From contig JAFEAQ010000006.1 in NCBI GenBank assembly GCA_018266295.1, forward strand, positions 124,001 to 188,000: a stretch of DNA of 64,000 nt, written 5' to 3'. This DNA comes from Bdellovibrionales bacterium. Its GTDB lineage: Bacteria; Bdellovibrionota; Bdellovibrionia; Bdellovibrionales; Bdellovibrionaceae. The position numbers and the translations under genes are program-made. The notes under the pieces are model-generated. The model saw only the letters and a list, made by a program, of their open reading frames with translations, ran no database searches and was not told the DNA's origin. Below are positions 14,958 through 25,288 of the stretch, one piece after another (position 1 is the first letter of the stretch; every line of letters begins with the position of its first letter).

Positions 14958-16070
14958 CTAAAGCTTTTTAGGCTCATTCATCGTTTTTAAACCTTTGATG
15001 TAATGCTTAAGCAGTTTTGTTTGAGCCAATCTATTTTGAATTCCGCGAGACATCTCTTGATGATCGAAAGGCTCGATTTTGAAATGTCTCTGAATCTTGC
15101 TTTGCACCTGTTGAATGTAAACAGGCGACGCTCCGATACTTTCAAGAGCTTCTTTAAAATAAATCTGTGTTTCAGCGACATCTTTATAGTCGCCAATAGT
15201 TCCCGCAAGCTCACTGATAATCGAAAACTCATACTGGGGCACCTTGATCGGCTGCTCAACCAGGATCTCACTGGATTTTGTGTATTTCGAATTCATCAGT
15301 TTGGGATTTTGCGCTAAGAGCTCGTTAAACCATCCGTTAATACCCGTCGGCAAATCCGTTTCTGGCTGCAACTCGACAAGCCCCTTAAGGGCGTTGACTT
15401 GAATAAGAAGAGAACGCAATTGACGTCGCAGTCTATGAAGTCCTTTTTCAATATCAGGGCTATCGAAAGCACCCGCTTTGATACCTTTTTGAACTTCCTC
15501 AGCCCGGTCCCGAAGATTTTCGATCAGAAACTTGCGCTCTTTTTTATCCTCGCTCCAGCGGCCTTTTTTATCGAGTTCAGCCTTGAGCAGGCGAATGGTT
15601 TGCTCTGGGGATTCCCAGAGGCCCGATTCTTTCATTGTTTGCAAAAGAACCTCTTTGGCCTGCAGCTCTTTTGCTCTGAAATAGGGCTCTAAAACAGGCT
15701 CGTCGATTTTGACGGCAACTTTTCGCAGAGAAACCGCAAGGTCATAATCACCAAAGACACCCTGCCAATCTTTAAAGTTCGAGGTCTTTTTCGCGAAGAA
15801 TTTTGTATTCTGAGCCATCACCATTTGTGAAAGGCCTTGAAGTCTAAAAAAGTTCTTACGGACTTCTTCATTCATTAAAAGCTTGAGTTTTTGGTCATCA
15901 GAAAGATGCTTACTGTCGGCAAAGAGGGTTTGAATTGTATCGAGCTCCTGATTCAAAAATCTACGGGCCATAGAATGATCCTGCTCAAATACTTGGGCGC
16001 AGATTTCCTGAGCTTGGGCAAAGCTCTGGAAAAGTGGTAAAGCCAAAAGTATTAACAGCAAGGTTTTCAA
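14958..16070 (-). CDS. Exported helical protein of unknown function
   Basis: The start is a TTG at 16070 (MKTLLLILLALPLF), chosen because AGAGG lies five bases upstream and it gives a clean signal peptide ending AQA-QE. A TTG at 16106 would add 12 non-hydrophobic residues. The mature protein of about 350 residues is rich in Leu, Lys, Glu and Gln, with long predicted helices and coiled-coil character (for example the stretch around KDERKFLIENLRDRAEEV-type heptads), and has one Cys near the N-terminus. No catalytic motif is seen. It is the first gene of a two-gene unit with 13732-14949. Function is unknown. Confidence 0.65.
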   Translation of the reverse strand: MKTLLLILLALPLFQSFAQAQEICAQVFEQDHSMARRFLNQELDTIQTLFADSKHLSDDQKLKLLMNEEVRKNFFRLQGLSQMVMAQNTKFFAKKTSNFKDWQGVFGDYDLAVSLRKVAVKIDEPVLEPYFRAKELQAKEVLLQTMKESGLWESPEQTIRLLKAELDKKGRWSEDKKERKFLIENLRDRAEEVQKGIKAGAFDSPDIEKGLHRLRRQLRSLLIQVNALKGLVELQPETDLPTGINGWFNELLAQNPKLMNSKYTKSSEILVEQPIKVPQYEFSIISELAGTIGDYKDVAETQIYFKEALESIGASPVYIQQVQSKIQRHFKIEPFDHQEMSRGIQNRLAQTKLLKHYIKGLKTMNEPKKL

Positions 16071-16205
16071 AGGAACCTCTTTCAATTCATTAACAGTCGT
16101 TAGCAAAAAATGTCATCCACCTCCGGCATCTGCACCTCAAGTGCTAATGACGGAGAAGGACTCTTATACAAGCTAATAAGCAACCGAAGTGCCAAGCAGG
16201 TCCGA

Positions 16206-16225
16206 TCTCAAAATGAGACGGATGC
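16206..16225. repeat. Second copy of TCTCAAAATGAGAC-RGATGC
   Basis: Nineteen of 20 bases match the copy at 1265-1284. A small CAGG-AA-CCTG stem follows at 16225-16234. It sits between the stop of the receiver-PATAN gene and the start of the exported-protein gene, on the downstream side of the former. Confidence 0.6.
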
Positions 16226-16265
16226 AGGAACCTGTCTTTAGATTTTATATGAATGCAAAGGGGGG

Positions 16266-18197
16266 CTATTTCTTTTTGAAGAAACCGGAAACCATCTTCT
16301 TAAGGTCCATGTTCAGAAGATCTTCCTGCTTGCCGGCAGAAGCCAATTGATTGAGCTCACGTCGCGCCACAATCATGGAAGAGTTCAAAGCCAAACACTT
16401 CTCGAAAGATTTGCGTGCACCACTGACATCGCCCTTCGCTTTTTGCAACAGGCCCGTCACGAATGGGAACAAGGCATCGTACTTTTCATCCGGCGGCACC
16501 TGCATGAGTTCGAACTCAATATCTTTGAGCTGCTGGATTTTCTTTTGCGGATCCAAGATACCAACCTTCGCCCATGCGTTGTATAGATGGGCCTGCTGCA
16601 AGCTTGGATTCAAATCCATTACTTGAGTCATAAAGTTGGCTGCTTTTGCGTACTGATTGAGCTGCAAAGCGTTCTTTGCTTCTTCCAGCAAGGAAGTCGC
16701 ACGTAATTTCTTTTCAGCTTCTGATTTCAAATTCGATTGCTTAAACTGCTGACGTTGGCCCGCATCGAGGTACGAGGTACAAGCTTCCGTCACGCGAGTA
16801 CGGATTTGCCCCCAGAGTCTGTAAGCCTCACCTTTTTGATCGCGCGGCTGTTCACCGAGCATCGGCAAGAACTCATCGACCATGCCGCTGACAGTTGCCA
16901 CGGTCTCTTGACCGAGACCGAAGTATTCCACCACTTGCAGATGATTTTTACCCTGCAAATCAGCATAGATTTTACGAAGAGCTTTTAACTGCTCTTGTGG
17001 ATTCACAACGGCCTGAGATTTCGAGAACGAAATCAGACCTTTTGTCAGCAAAAAATGAATCGCCTTATGAACCGCCGCTTCGTGATAACCAGGCTGTCCT
17101 AAAAGGTCCATCAAAGTCACACCACGATCGAGGTTTTCCAAGAAACCTTCAAGGCTTTGGATCAAAGACATTTTCAGTGCCGGATGATCTTCACGATACG
17201 TCGAGCTGCGCGTAATACGGTAGCTCGCCCACATCATATGCATAGATTTGAGCCACGCCGCACTCAGCTTTGAAGCAATCCAGTCATGCAAGAAATAAGA
17301 CAGAGAGTCGGAATCAATGCTTGGCTCGATCATCTCAACTTCAACTGAAGCAAAGTTGATGCGGATCATTTGGTCCACGATGGTGCGAGACAAACGGATA
17401 TTCATCTGTTCAGTCAGAATCAAGTCAAACGCATGCGGGCTCAGCTTATTGGCTTGAATCATGCGCTGACCAAGGCGGCGCGGGCTCTTGTCACTCAGAG
17501 CCTCCTGAACATCTTCAGGAGTCGCATAACCGCTTTGGATCAACATTTCGCCCAGATAAGTCGTCTTATCCTCAATATCAACGCCGACGATCACACCGTT
17601 CGAGAAGGAAACGCCCGACACATTGCCGTCAGCGCCGTAAATATTTAAATGCCCGGAGCTCTTAGTTTCAACCAGCAAGCTGTAAACAAACGGCAAATCA
17701 AAGCCGCTGACTTCTTCCAAAGACTCGATGAGTTTTCTCTTCTCGCGAGTCGAAACCATCGTGCGGCCGAAAATTTGATACAAGTTTTTACGTGGCGAAG
17801 CTTCTTCTTTGCGATTGGCCTCGTCGACTTTGACGAGCTTTAAGGCTTCATTCAAATCAAACGGCTTTTTCAAGAATGCAACAGCTTGAGTTTTCTTTGT
17901 TGCATCTTGAATAAAGTCTTTATCAGAGTAGATACCGCTCATTAGAACGGTTTTAAAGCGCGCTTTATTGCCGAGCTCTTTGCGGATCTTTGTGACGTAA
18001 TCCACGCCCATCATCTGCGGCAAAAGACAGTCGATGAAAAGCATATCAATCTTCTCTTTATTGAGAACTTCCGTGGCCTCATCTGGCTGTGTCACCAAAT
18101 AGACCTCATGACCAACACGCGAGAAGGCCTCTTTGAGAGCTTCCCCTAATGTGCTGTCATCTTCTAAGATTAAGATTTTTACTTTTGCATCTTCCAC
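16266..18197 (-). CDS. Response regulator with PATAN/DUF4388 and TPR domains
   Basis: Residues 1-125 form a receiver domain with acidic pair (EDD), phospho-acceptor Asp56 (LFIDCLLP) and Lys111 (KKPF). Residues about 150-215 match DUF4388/PATAN (SGHLNIYG...GVSFSNGVIVGVD). They are followed by a GspE-N-like repeat (YLGEMLIQSGYATPEDV, LGQRMIQANKLSPHAF). Winged-helix-like and helical segments precede C-terminal TPR repeats (about 520-630). The 643-residue design has no DNA-binding or enzymatic output, so it most likely works through protein contacts. It is 113 bp downstream of the STAS gene and the SpoIIE phosphatase gene on the same strand, which suggests one signalling unit. PATAN proteins in other bacteria interact with receivers and control motility or surface behaviour. 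Confidence 0.8.
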   Translation of the reverse strand: MEDAKVKILILEDDSTLGEALKEAFSRVGHEVYLVTQPDEATEVLNKEKIDMLFIDCLLPQMMGVDYVTKIRKELGNKARFKTVLMSGIYSDKDFIQDATKKTQAVAFLKKPFDLNEALKLVKVDEANRKEEASPRKNLYQIFGRTMVSTREKRKLIESLEEVSGFDLPFVYSLLVETKSSGHLNIYGADGNVSGVSFSNGVIVGVDIEDKTTYLGEMLIQSGYATPEDVQEALSDKSPRRLGQRMIQANKLSPHAFDLILTEQMNIRLSRTIVDQMIRINFASVEVEMIEPSIDSDSLSYFLHDWIASKLSAAWLKSMHMMWASYRITRSSTYREDHPALKMSLIQSLEGFLENLDRGVTLMDLLGQPGYHEAAVHKAIHFLLTKGLISFSKSQAVVNPQEQLKALRKIYADLQGKNHLQVVEYFGLGQETVATVSGMVDEFLPMLGEQPRDQKGEAYRLWGQIRTRVTEACTSYLDAGQRQQFKQSNLKSEAEKKLRATSLLEEAKNALQLNQYAKAANFMTQVMDLNPSLQQAHLYNAWAKVGILDPQKKIQQLKDIEFELMQVPPDEKYDALFPFVTGLLQKAKGDVSGARKSFEKCLALNSSMIVARRELNQLASAGKQEDLLNMDLKKMVSGFFKKK

Positions 18198-18282
18198 GTG
18201 ATTTCTTCTCGGCAGAAAATGCTTGGAATTTAACGGAGTTAAGGCCCGAACTGGACCTTAAACTTTGGCGAGCAACTGGAAA

Positions 18283-18303
18283 CAGGACCTAAGACAAGTC
18301 CTG
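18283..18303. repeat. Hairpin CAGGAC / GTCCTG after the STAS gene
   Basis: A 6-bp perfect stem with a nine-base loop lies just beyond the stop at 18311 (leftward gene). The flank AAACAGG(A/G)CCT also appears after the stop of the lipoprotein gene at 27239. It may be a short dispersed intergenic repeat or a weak terminator. Confidence 0.4.
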
Positions 18304-18310
18304 GTCCCGA

Positions 18311-18781
18311 CTACTTCTTGATAAACTTGAAATACTTAGATTCGATAACATCCATTTCCATGGCATTACCTTCCTCGTCCTGGACTGTCGCCGGCGGATT
18401 CACGCTGTTTTCTGTGAACTCTGTCCCAAGACGAAACAGGACGTTCTTTTCAGAGCCGGATTCGTCATTGTAATAAGGCACGAAGAAAGATTGAACTTTT
18501 GCATTGGCAGGCAAGAAGCCATCAACCATGTTGATTTGGTCAACGATCACCTTAGGGCATTCGTTAAACGTGATAGACGCCGCAGGGGCCGTACTCATCC
18601 ACTTGATCCACTCGCGAATGCCGCAAGAATTGATGCTCTTCAAATTTCCCATTTGAATTTCAATTTGACCGGCACCTGCAAGGCTCAGCTGAGTAAAGTC
18701 CGCATCCTCATCGATAGACCCACCCATAACTACATTGAGTTTGTCGCCCGCTTTATTCATTTGGACATCAAATTTTCCCAT
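18311..18781 (-). CDS. STAS-like partner-switch protein
   Basis: This 156-residue protein begins with a strand-rich region (FDVQMNKAGDKLNVVMGGSID), then a conserved-looking segment, GNLKSINSCGIREWIKWMS. This matches the STAS pattern in which a Ser or Thr just before G-[IV]-x-x is phosphorylated in anti-sigma-factor antagonists. Here the residues are Ser-Cys-Gly-Ile, so the phosphosite could be the Ser of INSCG. A C-terminal extension of about 60 residues is polar. It lies 37 bp downstream of a SpoIIE-type phosphatase gene, the normal neighbour and eraser for phosphorylated STAS proteins. No RsbW-type kinase gene is next to it. Confidence 0.7.
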   Translation of the reverse strand: MGKFDVQMNKAGDKLNVVMGGSIDEDADFTQLSLAGAGQIEIQMGNLKSINSCGIREWIKWMSTAPAASITFNECPKVIVDQINMVDGFLPANAKVQSFFVPYYNDESGSEKNVLFRLGTEFTENSVNPPATVQDEEGNAMEMDVIESKYFKFIKK

Positions 18782-18818
18782 GATGCACTCCTTGCTCTAC
18801 ATACTACAGCTTATAAAT

Positions 18819-20660
18819 TTAAACGCTCGGATCATTTTTGACTACAAAAAATGTAACGTCATCAATGAGAGCTTGCCCTTGACGATGGTCCTGCATCATT
18901 TGAGCAAGACGTGCCACAGATTCGTTGGCCGTAGGATAGTCCTTGTTGGCATTGACCAGGGCTTTAATAAATTCCCGCTCTCCCCAACTCATCTTTGCCC
19001 CATTTTGAATATCAGGGATACCGTCAGTATAGAAGAATACCATATCTTCGGGCTCTAGTGTGACTGTGGTTTGCTTATACTTTGTCTCACGATTTTGACC
19101 CAAACGTGGATTATTCACTTCATTCAAAGGAATTAAATCCTTTTTCTTCAGCGCACTGCCACCTTTTTTGATCAAGAATGGCGCTTCATGAGACGCATTA
19201 GCATAGGTCAATTCGGATGTCTCAGGATCAAAAGAAGCCAAGAAGAATGTCATCATGATACGTCCTTTAGACACATCATAAATGGAACGATTCAGAAGCT
19301 CGAGCGCTTGCGCCGGAGTGATATTCAACCGCTCAATAATTGTGGAAGCCGATTTCGCAGCACTTGTTATCAGCGCCGCCGGAGCTCCGTGCCCCGTCGC
19401 ATCTCCAATCCACAAGAAGATCTTCTTACCGACCTGACAATAGTGCCACCAGTCGCCGCCGCACTCACTCGCCGGCTCGTAAAAACCAGAAATCGAAAGA
19501 GGACCCATTTTAGCTTCAGTTTCCGGAAACAGTGTCTCTTGCACCGTCTTCGCGGTTTGCAGCTCGGATTCCATACGCGCTTTTTGTGCCGTCTCATCGA
19601 GCAAACGTGAGACTTCGGCTGCCATCAGATTAAAGTTATCAGCTAGCGCACCCACTTCATCCGATGACTTTACATCAACACGGATATTGAAATCTCCTTC
19701 AGAAACTTTCTTGGTCGCCTGGAACAATGATGTCAAAGCGCTGGTGATGGTGCTCGATGCAAGCAAGCTGATGATCGCGGTTGCTGCGAGCAGGATGCCG
19801 AAGAAGATCAAAGATTTGCGAATCAGGATTTCAACAGCGCCCAAAGCTTTTTTCTTTTCAACTGTTGAGATCACCAAAAGATCGCCGAAACCGGCACGCG
19901 AATAAGAAACAAGCCAGTCTGTGCCACTACTGTCTTTAACTGTTTCCGCCCCTTGAGCCACTTTGTTATCTTTATTATCCAAGAAACGCAGCGGGAAGCT
20001 TGTTTGTAGCTGAGTCCCTACCGTTCCTTCTGGACCAAACAAGACTGTGCCATCTTGAGAGGCCAAGAAGAGTCTTTGCGACGATTGAGCTTTGAACATC
20101 TCAGCCACTTCCGAAAGACGTGCGATCATCATGAACACAGTATTCTGATTTTCATTCGTACCTTTGACTTTTTCGAAGATAAATAAACGATCATCGTGGT
20201 ACGGAGATTTAACAATACGACCCGTTTGCTCAAGCTCAGCGAAATATCCCGGCAAGAATTTCTCAAGACCGAGTAAAATTCCATCTGTCGATCGCGCCGT
20301 TTTTTCGACGAGATTTGCTTTCTCATACTTTTTTGCGTCCACATTGTATTTGAACGCGACAACGGACTCTAGACTAAAGTCGTTGGCGAAAATGAGATTT
20401 GTCTGAGAGGTAAACTCACCGTTTGTTAAAAAATCTTGAAAAATTGGTTTAGCTTCATTCAGAAGTGAGTTCAGTTGTGCCTTGACCTGTGAAGCCATAG
20501 CTCCTGAAACGTTGCTTGAAGAGTCAAAAACGTATGCAACTTTGTCACTTTCGAAGATTTGTACGGCCAGAAACAGATAGATAGACAACGTTAACAGCGG
20601 AATTAACGTCAGTAACAACAGAATTTTATATCTTATTGATATGCCAGACTTTTTCACCAA
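18819..20660 (-). CDS. Membrane sensor SpoIIE/PP2C phosphatase with HAMP domain
   Basis: An N-terminal membrane helix (about 12-32) is followed by a roughly 240-residue periplasmic sensor region. A second helix (ILIRKSLIFFGILLAATAIISLLASS) leads into a HAMP domain (TSLFQATKKVSEGDFNIRV...DEVGALADNFNLM). The C-terminus is a SpoIIE/RsbU phosphatase: a coiled linker ending ETLFPE, metal-binding Asp in GGDWW and WIGDATGHG, and later FYTDGI. It would dephosphorylate the STAS protein encoded just downstream in response to a periplasmic or membrane signal. The frame opens with TTG-GTG; a GTG at 20657 is an equally good start. The upstream gene at 20763 is transcribed away from it. Confidence 0.88.
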   Translation of the reverse strand: MVKKSGISIRYKILLLLTLIPLLTLSIYLFLAVQIFESDKVAYVFDSSSNVSGAMASQVKAQLNSLLNEAKPIFQDFLTNGEFTSQTNLIFANDFSLESVVAFKYNVDAKKYEKANLVEKTARSTDGILLGLEKFLPGYFAELEQTGRIVKSPYHDDRLFIFEKVKGTNENQNTVFMMIARLSEVAEMFKAQSSQRLFLASQDGTVLFGPEGTVGTQLQTSFPLRFLDNKDNKVAQGAETVKDSSGTDWLVSYSRAGFGDLLVISTVEKKKALGAVEILIRKSLIFFGILLAATAIISLLASSTITSALTSLFQATKKVSEGDFNIRVDVKSSDEVGALADNFNLMAAEVSRLLDETAQKARMESELQTAKTVQETLFPETEAKMGPLSISGFYEPASECGGDWWHYCQVGKKIFLWIGDATGHGAPAALITSAAKSASTIIERLNITPAQALELLNRSIYDVSKGRIMMTFFLASFDPETSELTYANASHEAPFLIKKGGSALKKKDLIPLNEVNNPRLGQNRETKYKQTTVTLEPEDMVFFYTDGIPDIQNGAKMSWGEREFIKALVNANKDYPTANESVARLAQMMQDHRQGQALIDDVTFFVVKNDPSV

Positions 20661-20762
20661 TATGAGTATGCCCCACCAAAACCACCCTGTGTAGGTCTAG
20701 GTTTTAGATCTTAGTCAAAAGTCCGTAAATATTTTCGCGCAAGTAGCCGACATGACTAGTGG

Positions 20763-22907
20763 ATGAGTGTATTTAACAGGTTTTCAACAACAGATAGAAT
20801 GATTTTAAGCGGGTCCGCTGTGATCCTCTTATTGCTATCGTATTTGTTGTACGACGATTCACTCCTCTTCCCGCCTGACACCAACAATGAACCTGCGATC
20901 GGTGTTATCTCTACGTCCGCGAATGATGTTCGCCGCAAAAATAGCGGCAACTTCATTTGGCTTCCGGGAAATAAGAAAGATCAAATTTATAATCGTGACA
21001 GCATCTTCACTGGGGATGGTTCTCAAGCTGCAATTCAATTGAACGACGGCTCACTCATCCAAATCCAAGAAAACTCTCTGGTGAATTTGAATCTAAAGAA
21101 CGGTCAAATGCAGCTGGATCTGCGCTTTGGTCAATTCGTTGGTAACGGGAACTCTACAATTCACGTTAAAACCGGCGACGATGAGTACACGATCGAAGGT
21201 AAAGACGCGAAGTTCGAAATCAATCGTTCACAATCCGGTAACTTGGATGTCAAAGTCCTTTCCGGAAATGCAGAGATCTCCGGCAAGGCCGGCAAGCAGA
21301 ACTTGAAATCTAACGAGTCTCTGCAAATCTCTAAAAAAGGTGCCGAGAAAAATCAAGTCGACGCCAAGATCACTCTGCTGACAAAAGACGACTCTCTCAT
21401 GTATCGCGCGGCAGATAAGCAGCCGTTGCCATTTGCCTGGGAAGGTAAAGGTCCTTTGGATCAATACCAAATCGAAATCGCAAAGACTGAAGACTTTAAA
21501 AAGGTTCTGGCACTCAGAACAACGACTGAACAGAAGTTCGCAGTTAAAGACTCATTAAAAGAAGGCAACTACTTCTGGCGAGTCAAAGGCCTCGACGATC
21601 GCCGCAAAGTCATTGCGTCCTCGGCCGTTCAAAAATTCTATCTCAGTTATATGTTACCTCCGACGATCACTTCGCCTGAGGATAAAGTGACTTTGAAAAA
21701 CAAAGCCCTTGATAAAGGCGAAGGACTGCAAGCCAGCACTCAAGTCGTCTGGACAGCGGATGAACGTCCCCTTCGCTATCAATGGCAGCTCAGTAAAACC
21801 GCTGAGTTCACTGAGAACATCGCGGAAAAGACTTTGGCAGAAAAAACAGTTGAGACTCCGACTCTGTTTCAGGGCACTTACTATACTCGCGTCCGCGGTA
21901 TCGATAAGGACAATCGCCCGTCTCCATGGTCGAAGACTCATGCGTTTAATTTCGAAGTCGCAAATGAAGAAAAACCGCCAGCTCCTCGCTTGGTGGAAAA
22001 ACGCATTCGTTTCCAGGTGCCGAAACTCGCCGAGGGCCGTGCTCCTTCAGCGGCGACCTCGCCACAAGTGGCTTGGACAAGTGTTGATGTCGCAAAAAAT
22101 TATCGCTGGGAAATCGCAAAGAACGCAAAATTTGTCGGAGCCGCCGCTTCTGAAACGCCCAACACAAAAGTCGCTTGGACTCAGTATAAGCCAGGCAAAT
22201 ACTATTTCCGCGTCTTTACAAAGACTGCGCTTGGCCAATCCAGTGACGCCAGTGAAACCGGTACACTCGAAGTCTATGGCGATGCGCCGATGCTGAACGC
22301 CATCCCGTCTGTCCTCGTGAAGAATGACGATGTTCGCGCAACAGCTCCTGCAAAAGAATCCCGTGCGACCTGGTCACCGATTCCAGAAGCCAAGACTTAC
22401 CTCGTTCAAATTGATAAGTCTGAAGAGTTCGCAAATCCGACGCAGATCGAAGTCCCTGCCACCGAGGGCGCAATCAGCATGCCTGAACCCGGCAAATACT
22501 TCGTTCGCGTTAAAGCGATGAACGAATCCAGCCAAGACATGAGCGACTTCTCAAACGTTCAAACCGTCGACTACGTCTTTAAGCACACACTCAAAGGACC
22601 GGACCTGATTGAGCCTTACGATAAGACCACCATCTTCTTGCAAAAAGACATGGAGCCTTTCATTTGGCTTGAGTGGAGTTCCGTCCCGGATGCGACGAAA
22701 TATATTCTTGAAGTCTCGACAAAAGCGGACTTCTCAAATGTCGTTATTTCTAAAGAGATGACTTCAACGCGCTTCCTGGTGAAAGAGAAAATTCCTTATG
22801 GCGCGATTTATTGGCGCGTCCGAGCGGTTCACCAAGACGAGAGCCTCAACAGTGATTGGTCCGCAAGGCAGTTTATGTTTATCCATCAAAGAAATGACGG
22901 GTTCTAA
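20763..22907 (+). CDS. Membrane-anchored FecR-domain protein with Fn3-like repeats
   Basis: A single membrane helix (about 14-30) leads to a FecR-type domain at about 55-170 (SIFTGDGSQAAIQLNDGSLIQIQENS, LDLRFGQF, VLSGNAEISG), a fold thought to bind ligands or partners in the periplasm. After it come about five fibronectin-III-like repeats, each ending with Y-(F/Y)-x-R-V-(K/R/F) and spaced about 90-100 residues apart. The 714-residue product is thus an envelope-spanning scaffold. Its stop overlaps the ATG of the next gene, a histidine kinase-like protein, by one base (TAATG), so the two are surely co-translated. It diverges from the SpoIIE gene. Confidence 0.85.
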   Translation: MSVFNRFSTTDRMILSGSAVILLLLSYLLYDDSLLFPPDTNNEPAIGVISTSANDVRRKNSGNFIWLPGNKKDQIYNRDSIFTGDGSQAAIQLNDGSLIQIQENSLVNLNLKNGQMQLDLRFGQFVGNGNSTIHVKTGDDEYTIEGKDAKFEINRSQSGNLDVKVLSGNAEISGKAGKQNLKSNESLQISKKGAEKNQVDAKITLLTKDDSLMYRAADKQPLPFAWEGKGPLDQYQIEIAKTEDFKKVLALRTTTEQKFAVKDSLKEGNYFWRVKGLDDRRKVIASSAVQKFYLSYMLPPTITSPEDKVTLKNKALDKGEGLQASTQVVWTADERPLRYQWQLSKTAEFTENIAEKTLAEKTVETPTLFQGTYYTRVRGIDKDNRPSPWSKTHAFNFEVANEEKPPAPRLVEKRIRFQVPKLAEGRAPSAATSPQVAWTSVDVAKNYRWEIAKNAKFVGAAASETPNTKVAWTQYKPGKYYFRVFTKTALGQSSDASETGTLEVYGDAPMLNAIPSVLVKNDDVRATAPAKESRATWSPIPEAKTYLVQIDKSEEFANPTQIEVPATEGAISMPEPGKYFVRVKAMNESSQDMSDFSNVQTVDYVFKHTLKGPDLIEPYDKTTIFLQKDMEPFIWLEWSSVPDATKYILEVSTKADFSNVVISKEMTSTRFLVKEKIPYGAIYWRVRAVHQDESLNSDWSARQFMFIHQRNDGF

Positions 22908-24841
22908 TGAAGGCACACTACCCGTTATTTGATACACTGCTGGAACCGACATTCATCCTCAGCGCTGAGGGTAAAGTCGTCTATTGCAACGAGCCTGCTG
23001 CGATCATTTGCGAAATGTCGGTGCGTAAAATCAGCCGCGGAATTCCGTTCAAAGATCTTTTTACTTTCAGCGACGTGATCGACGGTCTCGACAATCTGAC
23101 GAATGTCAAAGACCCGACACCTTATAAAGAAGTGAACTTCGAAACTCCAGGCGGCCAAAAAGGCAAAGTGCAAGTCACTATTCAGCCAATTCAAAACGAA
23201 CAAGGCGACCAGCATTGGATCATCTTCGTTCGTGACGTGACGTTGGAAGAACGCCTGCAGAAAAAATACCGCGCCGAGCTTGAACAAAAAGAAGATGTGA
23301 TCCTCGATTTGCAAAAAGCCCGTGCCGAGCTTGAACAATACTCTAAAAACCTCGAAAAAATGGTCGAAGAACGCACGCAACAGATTTCAAGCTTGAACCG
23401 CTTGATGAAAGCGTTGCTGGATAGCTTGAGCCAAGGCTTCTTCGTCTTTGATAAAAATGGTCTGTGCTTAGAAGTGTCTTCGAAGGCCTGCGAGCACACG
23501 GTGGAATCACAACCTGCTGGTCGCATGATCTGGGATGTTTTGAAACTCGGCGAAGCCAAAGTCGACGGCTTCAAAAAGTGGATGATGACATGCTTCTCTG
23601 AGCTTCTGCCGTTTGAAGACCTGGCACCCCTCGGCCCTGCGGAGTTCCCGCACAGCAAAGGCCGCAATATTTCGCTTGAGTACTTCCCGCTTCGCAATGC
23701 CGAGAACCAAATTGACGGCGTCGTGGTTGTGGCTTCAGATATTACTTCTCTCGTTGAGGCGCGCAAACAGGCTGAAAACGAAAAGCATCATGCGAAATTA
23801 ATTATCAACATGATCCGCAGCAAAAACGAAATGGGCCGCTTTATCCGTGAATCTCAATTGATGCTGACGGAACTTAAGAACACCATCAACAAGCCGCAAC
23901 CTCAATGGGATCCCGAGGCGATCTTCCGTTCTTTGCACACGCTCAAAGGCGGCGCAGCTCTCTTCTCAGTGCATACGGTGGCTGAAGCCTGCCACAATGC
24001 CGAGACTCGTTTGACGAACTACAATGAATCACAAACCCAGGAAAACGCCGATAAACTCAAAAGCCAATGCCAAGCCGTTGAATTGCAGTTTGGCGCTTTC
24101 TTGAGTGAGACCAAGGAAATCCTTGGCGCATCCATTCTTTCAAGCGAACGGCTCCTGGAAATTTCGGTGACCGACCTCAACACGCTCCTGGATAAGCTGC
24201 AAACAATTCCACAGGCAAAAGCTATTGCAGAAAATGCTTTGGCTCACCTGCTCTTTGAACCGATTAAGAATTTCTTTGAGCCTTACAAGGAAGTCTCTTT
24301 CCGCGTAGCCGAAAAAGAAAACAAAATGATCCGCAACATCGAGTTTAAAAATGCCATGATTCCGGTCGTACCCGAGATCTATGGACCTCTGTTTGCCACT
24401 TTTGTACATGCGTTTAGAAACTCCGTCGACCACGGCATTGAGCTTCCGGATGTCCGCCACAAGCTCGGCAAATCCGAAGGCGGCGAGATTATAGTTGCGT
24501 TCTCGCGCCAAGATCTCCCGACTCCAACGCTCCGAATTTCGCTCAGTGATGATGGTGGTGGTGTGGATCCTGCCAAGATTCGCGCAAAGCTTGCAAGTAA
24601 AGGTATCAATACGGATAAAGAATCCGACCAAGAAGTCATTCAGCATATCTTTGACTCTCAGTTCTCAACCAAAGAACAAGTCACCGAGACTTCCGGCCGC
24701 GGCGTCGGCATGGATGCGATCAAATACGAAGCCACCGCATTGGGAGGTAGAGTGTGGGTCGAATCCGAACTCGGCAAAGGCAATACACTCATCGTTGAAG
24801 TGCCTTACATGACGAAGGCTCCAACAAAAAAAGCCGCTTAG
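22907..24841 (+). CDS. PAS-PAS-Hpt-HATPase signalling kinase (CheA-like without CheW)
   Basis: Domain order in 644 residues: PAS (about 1-105), a coiled coil (about 110-165, QKARAELEQYSKNLEKMVEERT), PAS (about 170-285), an Hpt domain with phospho-site His344 (HTLKGGAALF), then a HATPase_c domain (about 480-635). The ATPase boxes are seen as FVHAFRNSVDHGIE (N box), SDDGGGVD (G1) and SGRGVGMDAIK (G2), all close to CheA. There is no membrane helix, no CheW-like domain and no receiver. It probably autophosphorylates in trans onto His344 and passes phosphate to the CheY encoded next door. Coupling with the FecR protein suggests that this is the envelope sensor's cytoplasmic partner. A terminator stem overlaps the stop. 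Confidence 0.85.
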   Translation: MKAHYPLFDTLLEPTFILSAEGKVVYCNEPAAIICEMSVRKISRGIPFKDLFTFSDVIDGLDNLTNVKDPTPYKEVNFETPGGQKGKVQVTIQPIQNEQGDQHWIIFVRDVTLEERLQKKYRAELEQKEDVILDLQKARAELEQYSKNLEKMVEERTQQISSLNRLMKALLDSLSQGFFVFDKNGLCLEVSSKACEHTVESQPAGRMIWDVLKLGEAKVDGFKKWMMTCFSELLPFEDLAPLGPAEFPHSKGRNISLEYFPLRNAENQIDGVVVVASDITSLVEARKQAENEKHHAKLIINMIRSKNEMGRFIRESQLMLTELKNTINKPQPQWDPEAIFRSLHTLKGGAALFSVHTVAEACHNAETRLTNYNESQTQENADKLKSQCQAVELQFGAFLSETKEILGASILSSERLLEISVTDLNTLLDKLQTIPQAKAIAENALAHLLFEPIKNFFEPYKEVSFRVAEKENKMIRNIEFKNAMIPVVPEIYGPLFATFVHAFRNSVDHGIELPDVRHKLGKSEGGEIIVAFSRQDLPTPTLRISLSDDGGGVDPAKIRAKLASKGINTDKESDQEVIQHIFDSQFSTKEQVTETSGRGVGMDAIKYEATALGGRVWVESELGKGNTLIVEVPYMTKAPTKKAA

Positions 24842-24880: not shown

Positions 24881-25288
24881 CTAACCTTTATTGTGCTTCT
24901 GGAAAGCCGTCTTCAATTTATCTTCGAAGATCTTCGCAGAGAATGGCTTCACGATGTACTGAGAGGCACCGGCAAGCACCGCCTCTGTCACCTGATCGCG
25001 CTCTGCTTCTGACGTCAAAAGCACGAAGGGCAAATTCGCCCACTCTGCTTGTGCACGAACGTGCTTCAGCAAATCGATACCCTTCATGTTAGGCATATTC
25101 CAGTCAGAGATGACCAACTGAATGCTGTTATTCGGCGTATTCAGCTGAATCAGCATACGAAGTGCTTCTTCGCCATCGCTTGCTTCCTGAATGTTTTTGA
25201 AGCCCATGCCCTTGAGTTGGTTCTTCACCAAATCACGGATCGAAGGCATGTCATCTATGACCAAGATTCTTGTATCTAATGGGAACAT
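24881..25288 (-). CDS. CheY-type single-domain response regulator
   Basis: This 135-residue receiver domain has acidic Asp12-Asp13, phospho-acceptor Asp62 (VISDWNMP), Thr92 (LLTSE) and Lys114 (IVKPF), all the residues needed for phosphotransfer. No output domain is attached, so it would act by binding a target, as CheY does. It converges with the PAS-Hpt-HATPase kinase gene, which is the obvious phosphodonor candidate. It need not be the flagellar CheY, since no chemotaxis genes lie nearby. Start ATG at 25288 follows a GGAG-like sequence. Confidence 0.9.
   Translation of the reverse strand: MFPLDTRILVIDDMPSIRDLVKNQLKGMGFKNIQEASDGEEALRMLIQLNTPNNSIQLVISDWNMPNMKGIDLLKHVRAQAEWANLPFVLLTSEAERDQVTEAVLAGASQYIVKPFSAKIFEDKLKTAFQKHNKG

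Follow-up and report, generated by a model that had tools for sequence, protein, structure and literature searches.

Which enzyme would phosphorylate the STAS protein of a partner-switching locus that contains a phosphatase and no kinase? This question is raised by a 64,000-nucleotide stretch of Bdellovibrionales bacterium DNA (the window; GenBank assembly GCA_018266295.1, contig JAFEAQ010000006.1, positions 124,001 to 188,000), in which genes for a SpoIIE-type phosphatase, a STAS protein and a receiver-PATAN-TPR protein follow one another. In RsbW and SpoIIAB systems, a kinase and a phosphatase set the phosphate on a serine of the STAS protein, and the phosphate state decides which partner is bound (PMC8256260 and PMC6482189, in the excerpts of these papers used here). 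We consider it likely that the locus is a genuine partner-switching module and that its kinase is a 479-residue protein encoded on another contig. The pairing of this kinase with the STAS protein is the best explanation for an association between their families, and it would resolve the apparent paradox of a phosphatase and a STAS protein without a kinase. The genome (4.22 Mb in 23 contigs) is that of a relative of predatory Bdellovibrio, and the closest named homologue of the STAS protein is found in Bdellovibrio bacteriovorus kdesi (76% identical). No description of the module in Bdellovibrio was found in the open-licence PMC literature, where the one paper with both terms, 'Bdellovibrio' and 'partner-switch', does no more than cite a Bdellovibrio cyclase paper.

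Phosphatase, STAS protein and a cryptic kinase family

The open reading frames (ORFs), domains and order of the three genes agree with a preliminary description of the window: they are successive on the minus strand, with gaps of 37 bp between SpoIIE and STAS and 113 bp between STAS and PATAN. The first gene (18819..20660, minus strand) encodes a sensor phosphatase of 613 residues, in which Pfam finds a weak dCache-like region (dCache_1, 23.9 bits against a cut-off of 45), a HAMP domain (3.9e-10) and a SpoIIE-type PP2C domain (4e-35). When the window protein was aligned with 44 relatives' ORFs of 590-680 residues, D403, D420, T422, G423, H424, G425, D546, G547, D600, D601 and T603 were identical in 45/45 phosphatases. 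The PP2C metal-binding residues are intact in the window protein, as in phosphatases of the RsbU/RsbV/RsbW type, and its sequence relatives in the PDB are 3ke6 (Rv1364c), 6k4e, 3es2 and 3eq2. The genome encodes two SpoIIE-domain proteins. The second one, of 333 residues (L011:1099-2100, contig C8), lacks, as read from its sequence, several of the metal-binding positions and is a possible pseudophosphatase, so the window SpoIIE is likely the sole active one in the genome.

The STAS protein (18311..18781, minus strand; 156 residues) is of the anti-anti-sigma type. It has no meaningful match in Pfam or NCBIfam, the Pfam STAS family is matched weakly by 8 of 56 members of its own family (best 9e-4), and a PDB sequence search gave chance-level rows only. 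Its AlphaFold2 model has a mean predicted local distance difference test (pLDDT) score of 93.6 and matches SpoIIAA and RsbV over residues 1-99 with Z-scores of 11.7-12.0; about 55 residues form a C-terminal extension. Ser52 is located at the start of a helix (residues 52-62), and 113 of 114 distinct sequences of the family have this serine; the sole exception is the degenerate STAS part of a kinase-STAS fusion (L097). The model suggests a STAS-domain protein with a serine of the phosphorylatable type, and phosphorylation of this residue is predicted. As a separate observation, nine of 69 distinct sequences have C-termini with at least 4 cysteines (L089, L093, L094, L097, L197, L199, L205, L206 and L209), zinc-ribbon-like in several; the C-terminus of the window protein has none.

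Of 150 relatives found by a STAS scan, 80 neighbourhoods were kept. Their titles are mostly Bdellovibrio, Bdellovibrionales or Oligoflexia, or unspecific; one metagenome-assembled genome titled Streptomyces griseus was taken as mislabelled. L142, L176 and L204 were dropped because their STAS ORF was not called, which leaves 77 named loci. A further 60 neighbourhoods were examined and overlap with this set, so all neighbourhood counts come from the named set. In 50/77 loci, a SpoIIE gene is found no more than five genes from STAS, indicating that the SpoIIE-STAS neighbourhood is not due to chance.

STAS is immediately preceded, in 38 of the 77 loci, by a gene on its own strand for a protein of ~280 residues. 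Eight of these proteins were scanned singly, and none gave a Pfam match better than E 0.0017; among 41 aligned members, five touch HATPase_c_2 (best 0.0028) and three touch HATPase_c (best 0.0017), and no member reaches E 0.001. The GHKL motif residues E145, N149, D191, G194, G224 and G228 are invariant in 26/26 proteins, and the E..N, D..G and G..G motifs are also invariant in a second set (41/41). The AlphaFold model of one linked kinase (L140) has a pLDDT of 93.1. Its best fold matches are SpoIIAB (Z 12.8), UsfX (11.6), LvrC (11.2), RsbW (11.1), Rv1364c (10.4) and 6kko, the SiaB-SiaC complex (10.2), and the next fold group, of histidine and dehydrogenase kinases, reaches a Z of 6.7 or less. 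The best Foldseek E-value is 2.5e-5 for LvrC, with a root-mean-square deviation of 20 across both domains. A PDB sequence search with the kinase alignment (A1) returned chance-level rows only. Fusions of the RsbW-like domain also occur, with SpoIIE in 7 distinct rows and with STAS in 2. These results place a GHKL kinase of the RsbW/SpoIIAB fold in the relatives, linked or fused, one of them modelled, and the model together with the motifs points to an unrecognised RsbW-like kinase family. We note that this family lies below significant Pfam detection, and that profile searches can lead to a mistaken verdict of 'no RsbW in the genome'.

The kinase family and the STAS family occur together. Among 196 genomes, 127 have both, 4 have STAS only (G011, G063, G158 and G181), 3 have the kinase family only (G052, G096 and G133) and 62 have neither (Fisher p 4e-42, with kinship ignored). 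SpoIIE is present in 183 of the 196, which leaves little information in its own co-occurrence. Several loci carry further copies. Extra divergent kinase/STAS pairs are found in L122, L202, L203, L126 and L127, one of them beside a 1354-residue gene and that of L126 with an adjoining SpoIIE-FecR pair. L224 (G193) has the genes SpoIIE > kinase > STAS > kinase > STAS in tandem, so that the switch appears to have been duplicated. One kinase-family match (G021:C7:1686-2492) has one in-frame TAA and may be a pseudogene.

The unlinked kinase as candidate partner

There is no kinase gene in the 37-bp gap between the window SpoIIE and STAS genes, and no member of the RsbW-like family in the window. Alignment A1, searched against the genome with a limit of E 10, has one match only (E 7.2e-27), on contig C11: an unbroken ORF of 479 residues on the minus strand (G000:C11:1132110-1133549, equal to L111:8111-9550). 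The preliminary description was therefore right that no RsbW-type gene lies at the locus and that phosphate for the STAS protein must come from elsewhere, as the kinase is not encoded in the window. Its picture of a module without a kinase holds locally and is not supported for the genome as a whole, where the family has one detected member; the result that it named as its own refutation, a conserved RsbW partner encoded elsewhere, has largely been obtained. That family is linked to or fused with STAS in relatives, and it is from this association that we infer the specific pair.

The 479-residue protein matches Pfam cNMP_binding with 63.2 bits, and its divergent GHKL/RsbW-like domain keeps the three ATP-site motifs. 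This GHKL identity is by sequence homology, the modelled kinase (L140) being of the linked type. A degenerate receiver-like segment was read by eye; it has no Response_reg match at E up to 1, and the presumed aspartate position varies, also by eye. The arginine that we take to be the canonical phosphate-binding residue of cyclic-nucleotide domains looks replaced in this protein (PATTSVRA). Among the best 60 of 236 rows of a search of solved structures with the unlinked-kinase alignment (A3), matches run through the cNMP-type domain.

Two other kinds of kinase were considered. HATPase_c_2 gave nine matches in the genome as candidates for an ordinary RsbW; all carry HisKA, which marks them as histidine kinases, and they were rejected. 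SiaB (DUF6272) had no match in the genome, and the family gave no match in control genomes either.

We inspected 19 deep-lineage loci. In seven of them, the gene immediately downstream of STAS encodes a kinase of the unlinked type (L123, L211, L212, L213, L217, L218 and L220, with a divergent SpoIIE in L123 and L211), and four others (L222-L225) have a family kinase placed between the SpoIIE and STAS genes. The window genome's kinase falls into an 8-row clade of the kinase tree (support 99), and its half of the tree also holds SpoIIE-fused and STAS-downstream kinases. The STAS tree has 54 rows, as G018 and G132 have no STAS ORF. In it, the window protein belongs to a clade of nine (support 82/58) without a linked kinase, and the unlinked kinase is present in 9/9 of these genomes. 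The absence of the linked kinase in this clade reads most simply as one loss, on a tree that requires 9 changes overall and cannot separate gain from loss.

We also compared linked and unlinked kinases across 56 genomes, with labels set by hand; G136, whose contig is truncated, was omitted, as were loci L098-L101, which are second copies. Of the 18 genomes that lack a linked kinase, 15 have the unlinked one, compared with 19 of the 38 in which a kinase is linked or fused (Fisher p 0.016). Replacement of the linked by the unlinked kinase was rejected as a statistical pattern, since it is not significant once relatedness is considered.

Several observations weigh against the pairing. The kinase tree puts the window genome's kinase and the linked kinases of its order into different halves (support 98), and the complementarity of the two kinase types is not significant in independent pairs (median p 0.5). 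Three of the 18 genomes without a linked kinase (G011, G009 and G134) also have no orthologous unlinked kinase: G011 keeps STAS and PATAN with no kinase-family match, and G009 and G134 have other members only. Copies of the unlinked kinase within the window's own clade include a short one (G004) and two that are split into two pieces (G026 and G039). Alignment A3 gave six matches in the window genome, of which the five below the best were taken as cNMP-domain proteins. The genome has one STAS homologue at a limit of E 10, a count confined to this family among STAS domains (PF01740). Among the 77 named loci, 28 have both SpoIIE and a kinase nearby and 16 a kinase only, with 22 having SpoIIE and no nearby kinase and 11 having neither. 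Finally, 19/38 genomes with a linked or fused kinase have the unlinked one in addition, and the latter may therefore have another substrate.

This last point, together with G011, would fit an alternative in which the unlinked kinase serves another substrate, and the SpoIIE and STAS proteins use another kinase or the STAS protein is mostly unphosphorylated. We regard this alternative as doubtful. Lineages that lack a linked kinase still keep Ser52 and the SpoIIE active site, the genome contains a single STAS homologue and a single match to the kinase family, and the unlinked kinase accompanies all nine members of the window's STAS clade. The 479-residue protein as the kinase of the switch is the reading that we prefer.

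The receiver-PATAN gene and the CheA-like kinase

The third gene (16266..18197, minus strand) encodes a receiver-PATAN-TPR response regulator of 643 residues. Pfam matches its receiver (Response_reg, 2.9e-15), and its TPR matches are slightly below curated cut-offs. DUF4388 (PATAN) is below detection in the window protein itself and is found in 25 of 29 aligned homologues (best 4.8e-9), where it stands behind the receiver as in PATAN response regulators. D56 and K111 are invariant in the alignment of these homologues (A6). Residues 213-264 form an MshEN/PilF-like stretch (NF053729, 29.9 bits against a cut-off of 38; a weak match to PilF 6f8l, E 2.7e-4), which on sequence might bind cyclic di-GMP (c-di-GMP). 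A DnaJ domain is also matched by 9 of the 29 homologues (Pfam, E up to 0.1).

In 53/77 loci, PATAN is no more than five genes from STAS, as it would be if the three genes formed one operon and one complex with the receiver-PATAN protein as direct partner of STAS. This arrangement is improbable given what precedes the PATAN gene. A FliA (sigma28)-like promoter, TAAATTCC-N11-GCCGAGAA (18206..18232, minus strand), ends 8 nt before the start codon; it agrees with the consensus at 12/16 positions, a score equalled in 2% of control windows. With its 4 mismatches, the site is judged by its position and recurrence; at no more than 3 mismatches, the consensus is found at one unrelated site in the whole window, which is a chance number. 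By our own criterion, FliA-type sites precede 28 of 58 PATAN genes compared with 21 of 639 unassigned genes, and 16 of the 28 end 6-8 nt before the called start codon. The counts for the other gene classes are 6/51 for SpoIIE, 7/40 for FecR, 6/42 for the linked kinase, 2/76 for STAS, 1/51 for CheA, 1/41 for the receiver and 0/7 for the unlinked kinase. Taken individually, 19 of 45 loci have a fraction of at most 0.05 for the site before PATAN.

The gap between STAS and PATAN contains two predicted hairpins (18237..18315, minus strand; z -2.26, with 5/200 shuffles as low), which the terminator scan did not flag. Sigma-70 and terminator scans of 16000-21000 gave sites no more numerous than in shuffles. 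Terminator-like hairpins with T-runs were read by eye in the corresponding gap of L131, L133, L136, L137 and L138, and a gene other than PATAN follows STAS in L132 and L163. Because of the FliA-type promoter and the hairpins in relatives, the trio probably consists of two transcription units, SpoIIE-STAS and a separately transcribed PATAN gene. The succession of the trio on one strand stands, and a single operon is improbable. The promoter resembles the attack-phase consensus of Bdellovibrio bacteriovorus, TTAAG-N16-CCGATA (excerpt of PMC3627812), and its end so close to the start codon implies a near-leaderless transcript of the attack-phase type.

Upstream of the trio, on the plus strand, are a divergent FecR-domain protein (20763..22907; Pfam FecR, 2.5e-9), a conserved neighbour found within five genes of STAS in 38/77 loci, and a CheA-like kinase (22907..24841), for which Pfam gives the order PAS-PAS-Hpt-HATPase. 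A single-domain, CheY-like receiver follows (24881..25288, minus strand), assigned by reading its translation; it has a homologue within five genes of STAS in 39/77 loci and is likely the partner of the CheA-like kinase. CheA-type kinases carry the phosphate on an Hpt histidine and then pass it to receiver aspartates. The CheA-like kinase has both the Hpt histidine and the CheA-type ATPase domain of such phosphorelay kinases: His344, G348, N505, H509, D549, G597, G599 and G601 are present in 45/45 proteins and D508 in 43/45, with K347 (23 K, 22 E) and G551 (9/45) variable. Pfam reports no CheW/P3 domain in it. The gene is often directly downstream of STAS on the same strand, and many relatives have the run STAS > CheA-like > receiver > receiver-PATAN. 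Since the Hpt histidine is invariant and the receiver and receiver-PATAN genes follow the CheA-like gene, an Asp phosphorelay to the receivers is the simpler role, and the CheA-like kinase more plausibly serves them while sharing the neighbourhood. The suggestion in the preliminary description that it supplies the phosphate of STAS, which its linkage to STAS within five genes in 48/77 loci would favour, is highly improbable, as the receivers adjoin it and the STAS protein bears the serine motif used by RsbW-type kinases, unlike the His-Asp transfer of CheA-type ones.

Proposed switch and comparison with known systems

We propose that the 479-residue kinase would phosphorylate Ser52 of the STAS protein and would be gated by whatever its N-terminal part senses, presumably a nucleotide-type signal. 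The membrane SpoIIE phosphatase would strip the phosphate upon activation of its sensor and HAMP domain. Once unphosphorylated, STAS would bind a partner, either the kinase itself or another target, and free the output. The CheA-like kinase, the receiver and the receiver-PATAN protein would form a linked but separate His-Asp branch. The module is probably a variant of partner switching in which the kinase is detached and fused to a domain of the cyclic-nucleotide-binding type.

The output could be a sigma factor, FlgM or a c-di-GMP enzyme; the genome has eight Sigma70_r2 matches, and FlgM is present. The presence of FlgM weakens another candidate role, that of the RsbW-like kinase as the missing anti-sigma factor of FliA. 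To our knowledge, the control of the transition between attack and growth in these predators is not settled, and the output of a switch with two inputs may bear on this programme. A broader scenario, which we offer as speculative and rather unlikely as a whole, is a switch common across Bdellovibrionota, with the membrane SpoIIE opposed by a cryptic RsbW-like kinase that has sensor parts of receiver-like and cNMP type. In Bdellovibrio, the adjacent kinase would have been lost and an unlinked ligand-gated kinase would have taken over, joining cytosolic nucleotide-type and envelope signals on one STAS protein which, with the CheA/PATAN branch and its FliA-type promoter, would help to decide the attack-to-growth transition.

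The SpoIIE-SpoIIAA-SpoIIAB and RsbU-RsbV-RsbW switches of Bacillus are alike in having a PP2C phosphatase, a STAS protein with a serine at a helix start and a GHKL kinase of the same fold. Unlike in these switches, the linked kinases of the relatives all have an extra N-terminal part and no Pfam match at E 0.001, the kinase of the window genome is encoded apart from the other switch genes and carries a cNMP-type domain, and the STAS protein has a C-terminal extension. For the systems that follow, the comparison is limited to excerpts of the cited papers. In the SiaA-SiaB-SiaC system of Pseudomonas aeruginosa (PMC7647112), SiaA is the top NCBIfam match of the window phosphatase (3.2e-19), with 68.9 bits against an equivalog cut-off of 700 that is missed, and a SiaB-SiaC complex chain is the match to the linked kinase at Z 10.2 given above. 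The phosphosite is a threonine in SiaC and a serine in the STAS protein here.

HsbR-HsbA and CrsR-CrsA of Pseudomonas and Shewanella (PMC6482189) also combine PP2C, a GHKL kinase and a STAS protein, and their output is to sigma factors, including FliA via FlgM. In HsbR and CrsR, the receiver, PP2C and kinase are in one protein, whereas here each has a gene of its own, and the sensor phosphatase includes a HAMP domain and a periplasmic-type region. LvrC of Leptospira, a receiver-Bergerat anti-sigma protein (PMC13269768), shares the order of a receiver followed by an RsbW-like domain. The model of the linked kinase matches its Bergerat domain (Z 11.2), and the window genome's own copy is related by homology. 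The receiver of LvrC is canonical, whereas the receiver-like segment of the 479-residue kinase lacks a Response_reg match, and this kinase adds a cNMP-type domain. The REC-PATAN regulators PixG, PixE and LsiR of Synechocystis (PMC7690835) likewise combine a receiver with PATAN in a chemotaxis-like setting; unlike them, the window protein has TPRs and adjoins a partner-switch module.

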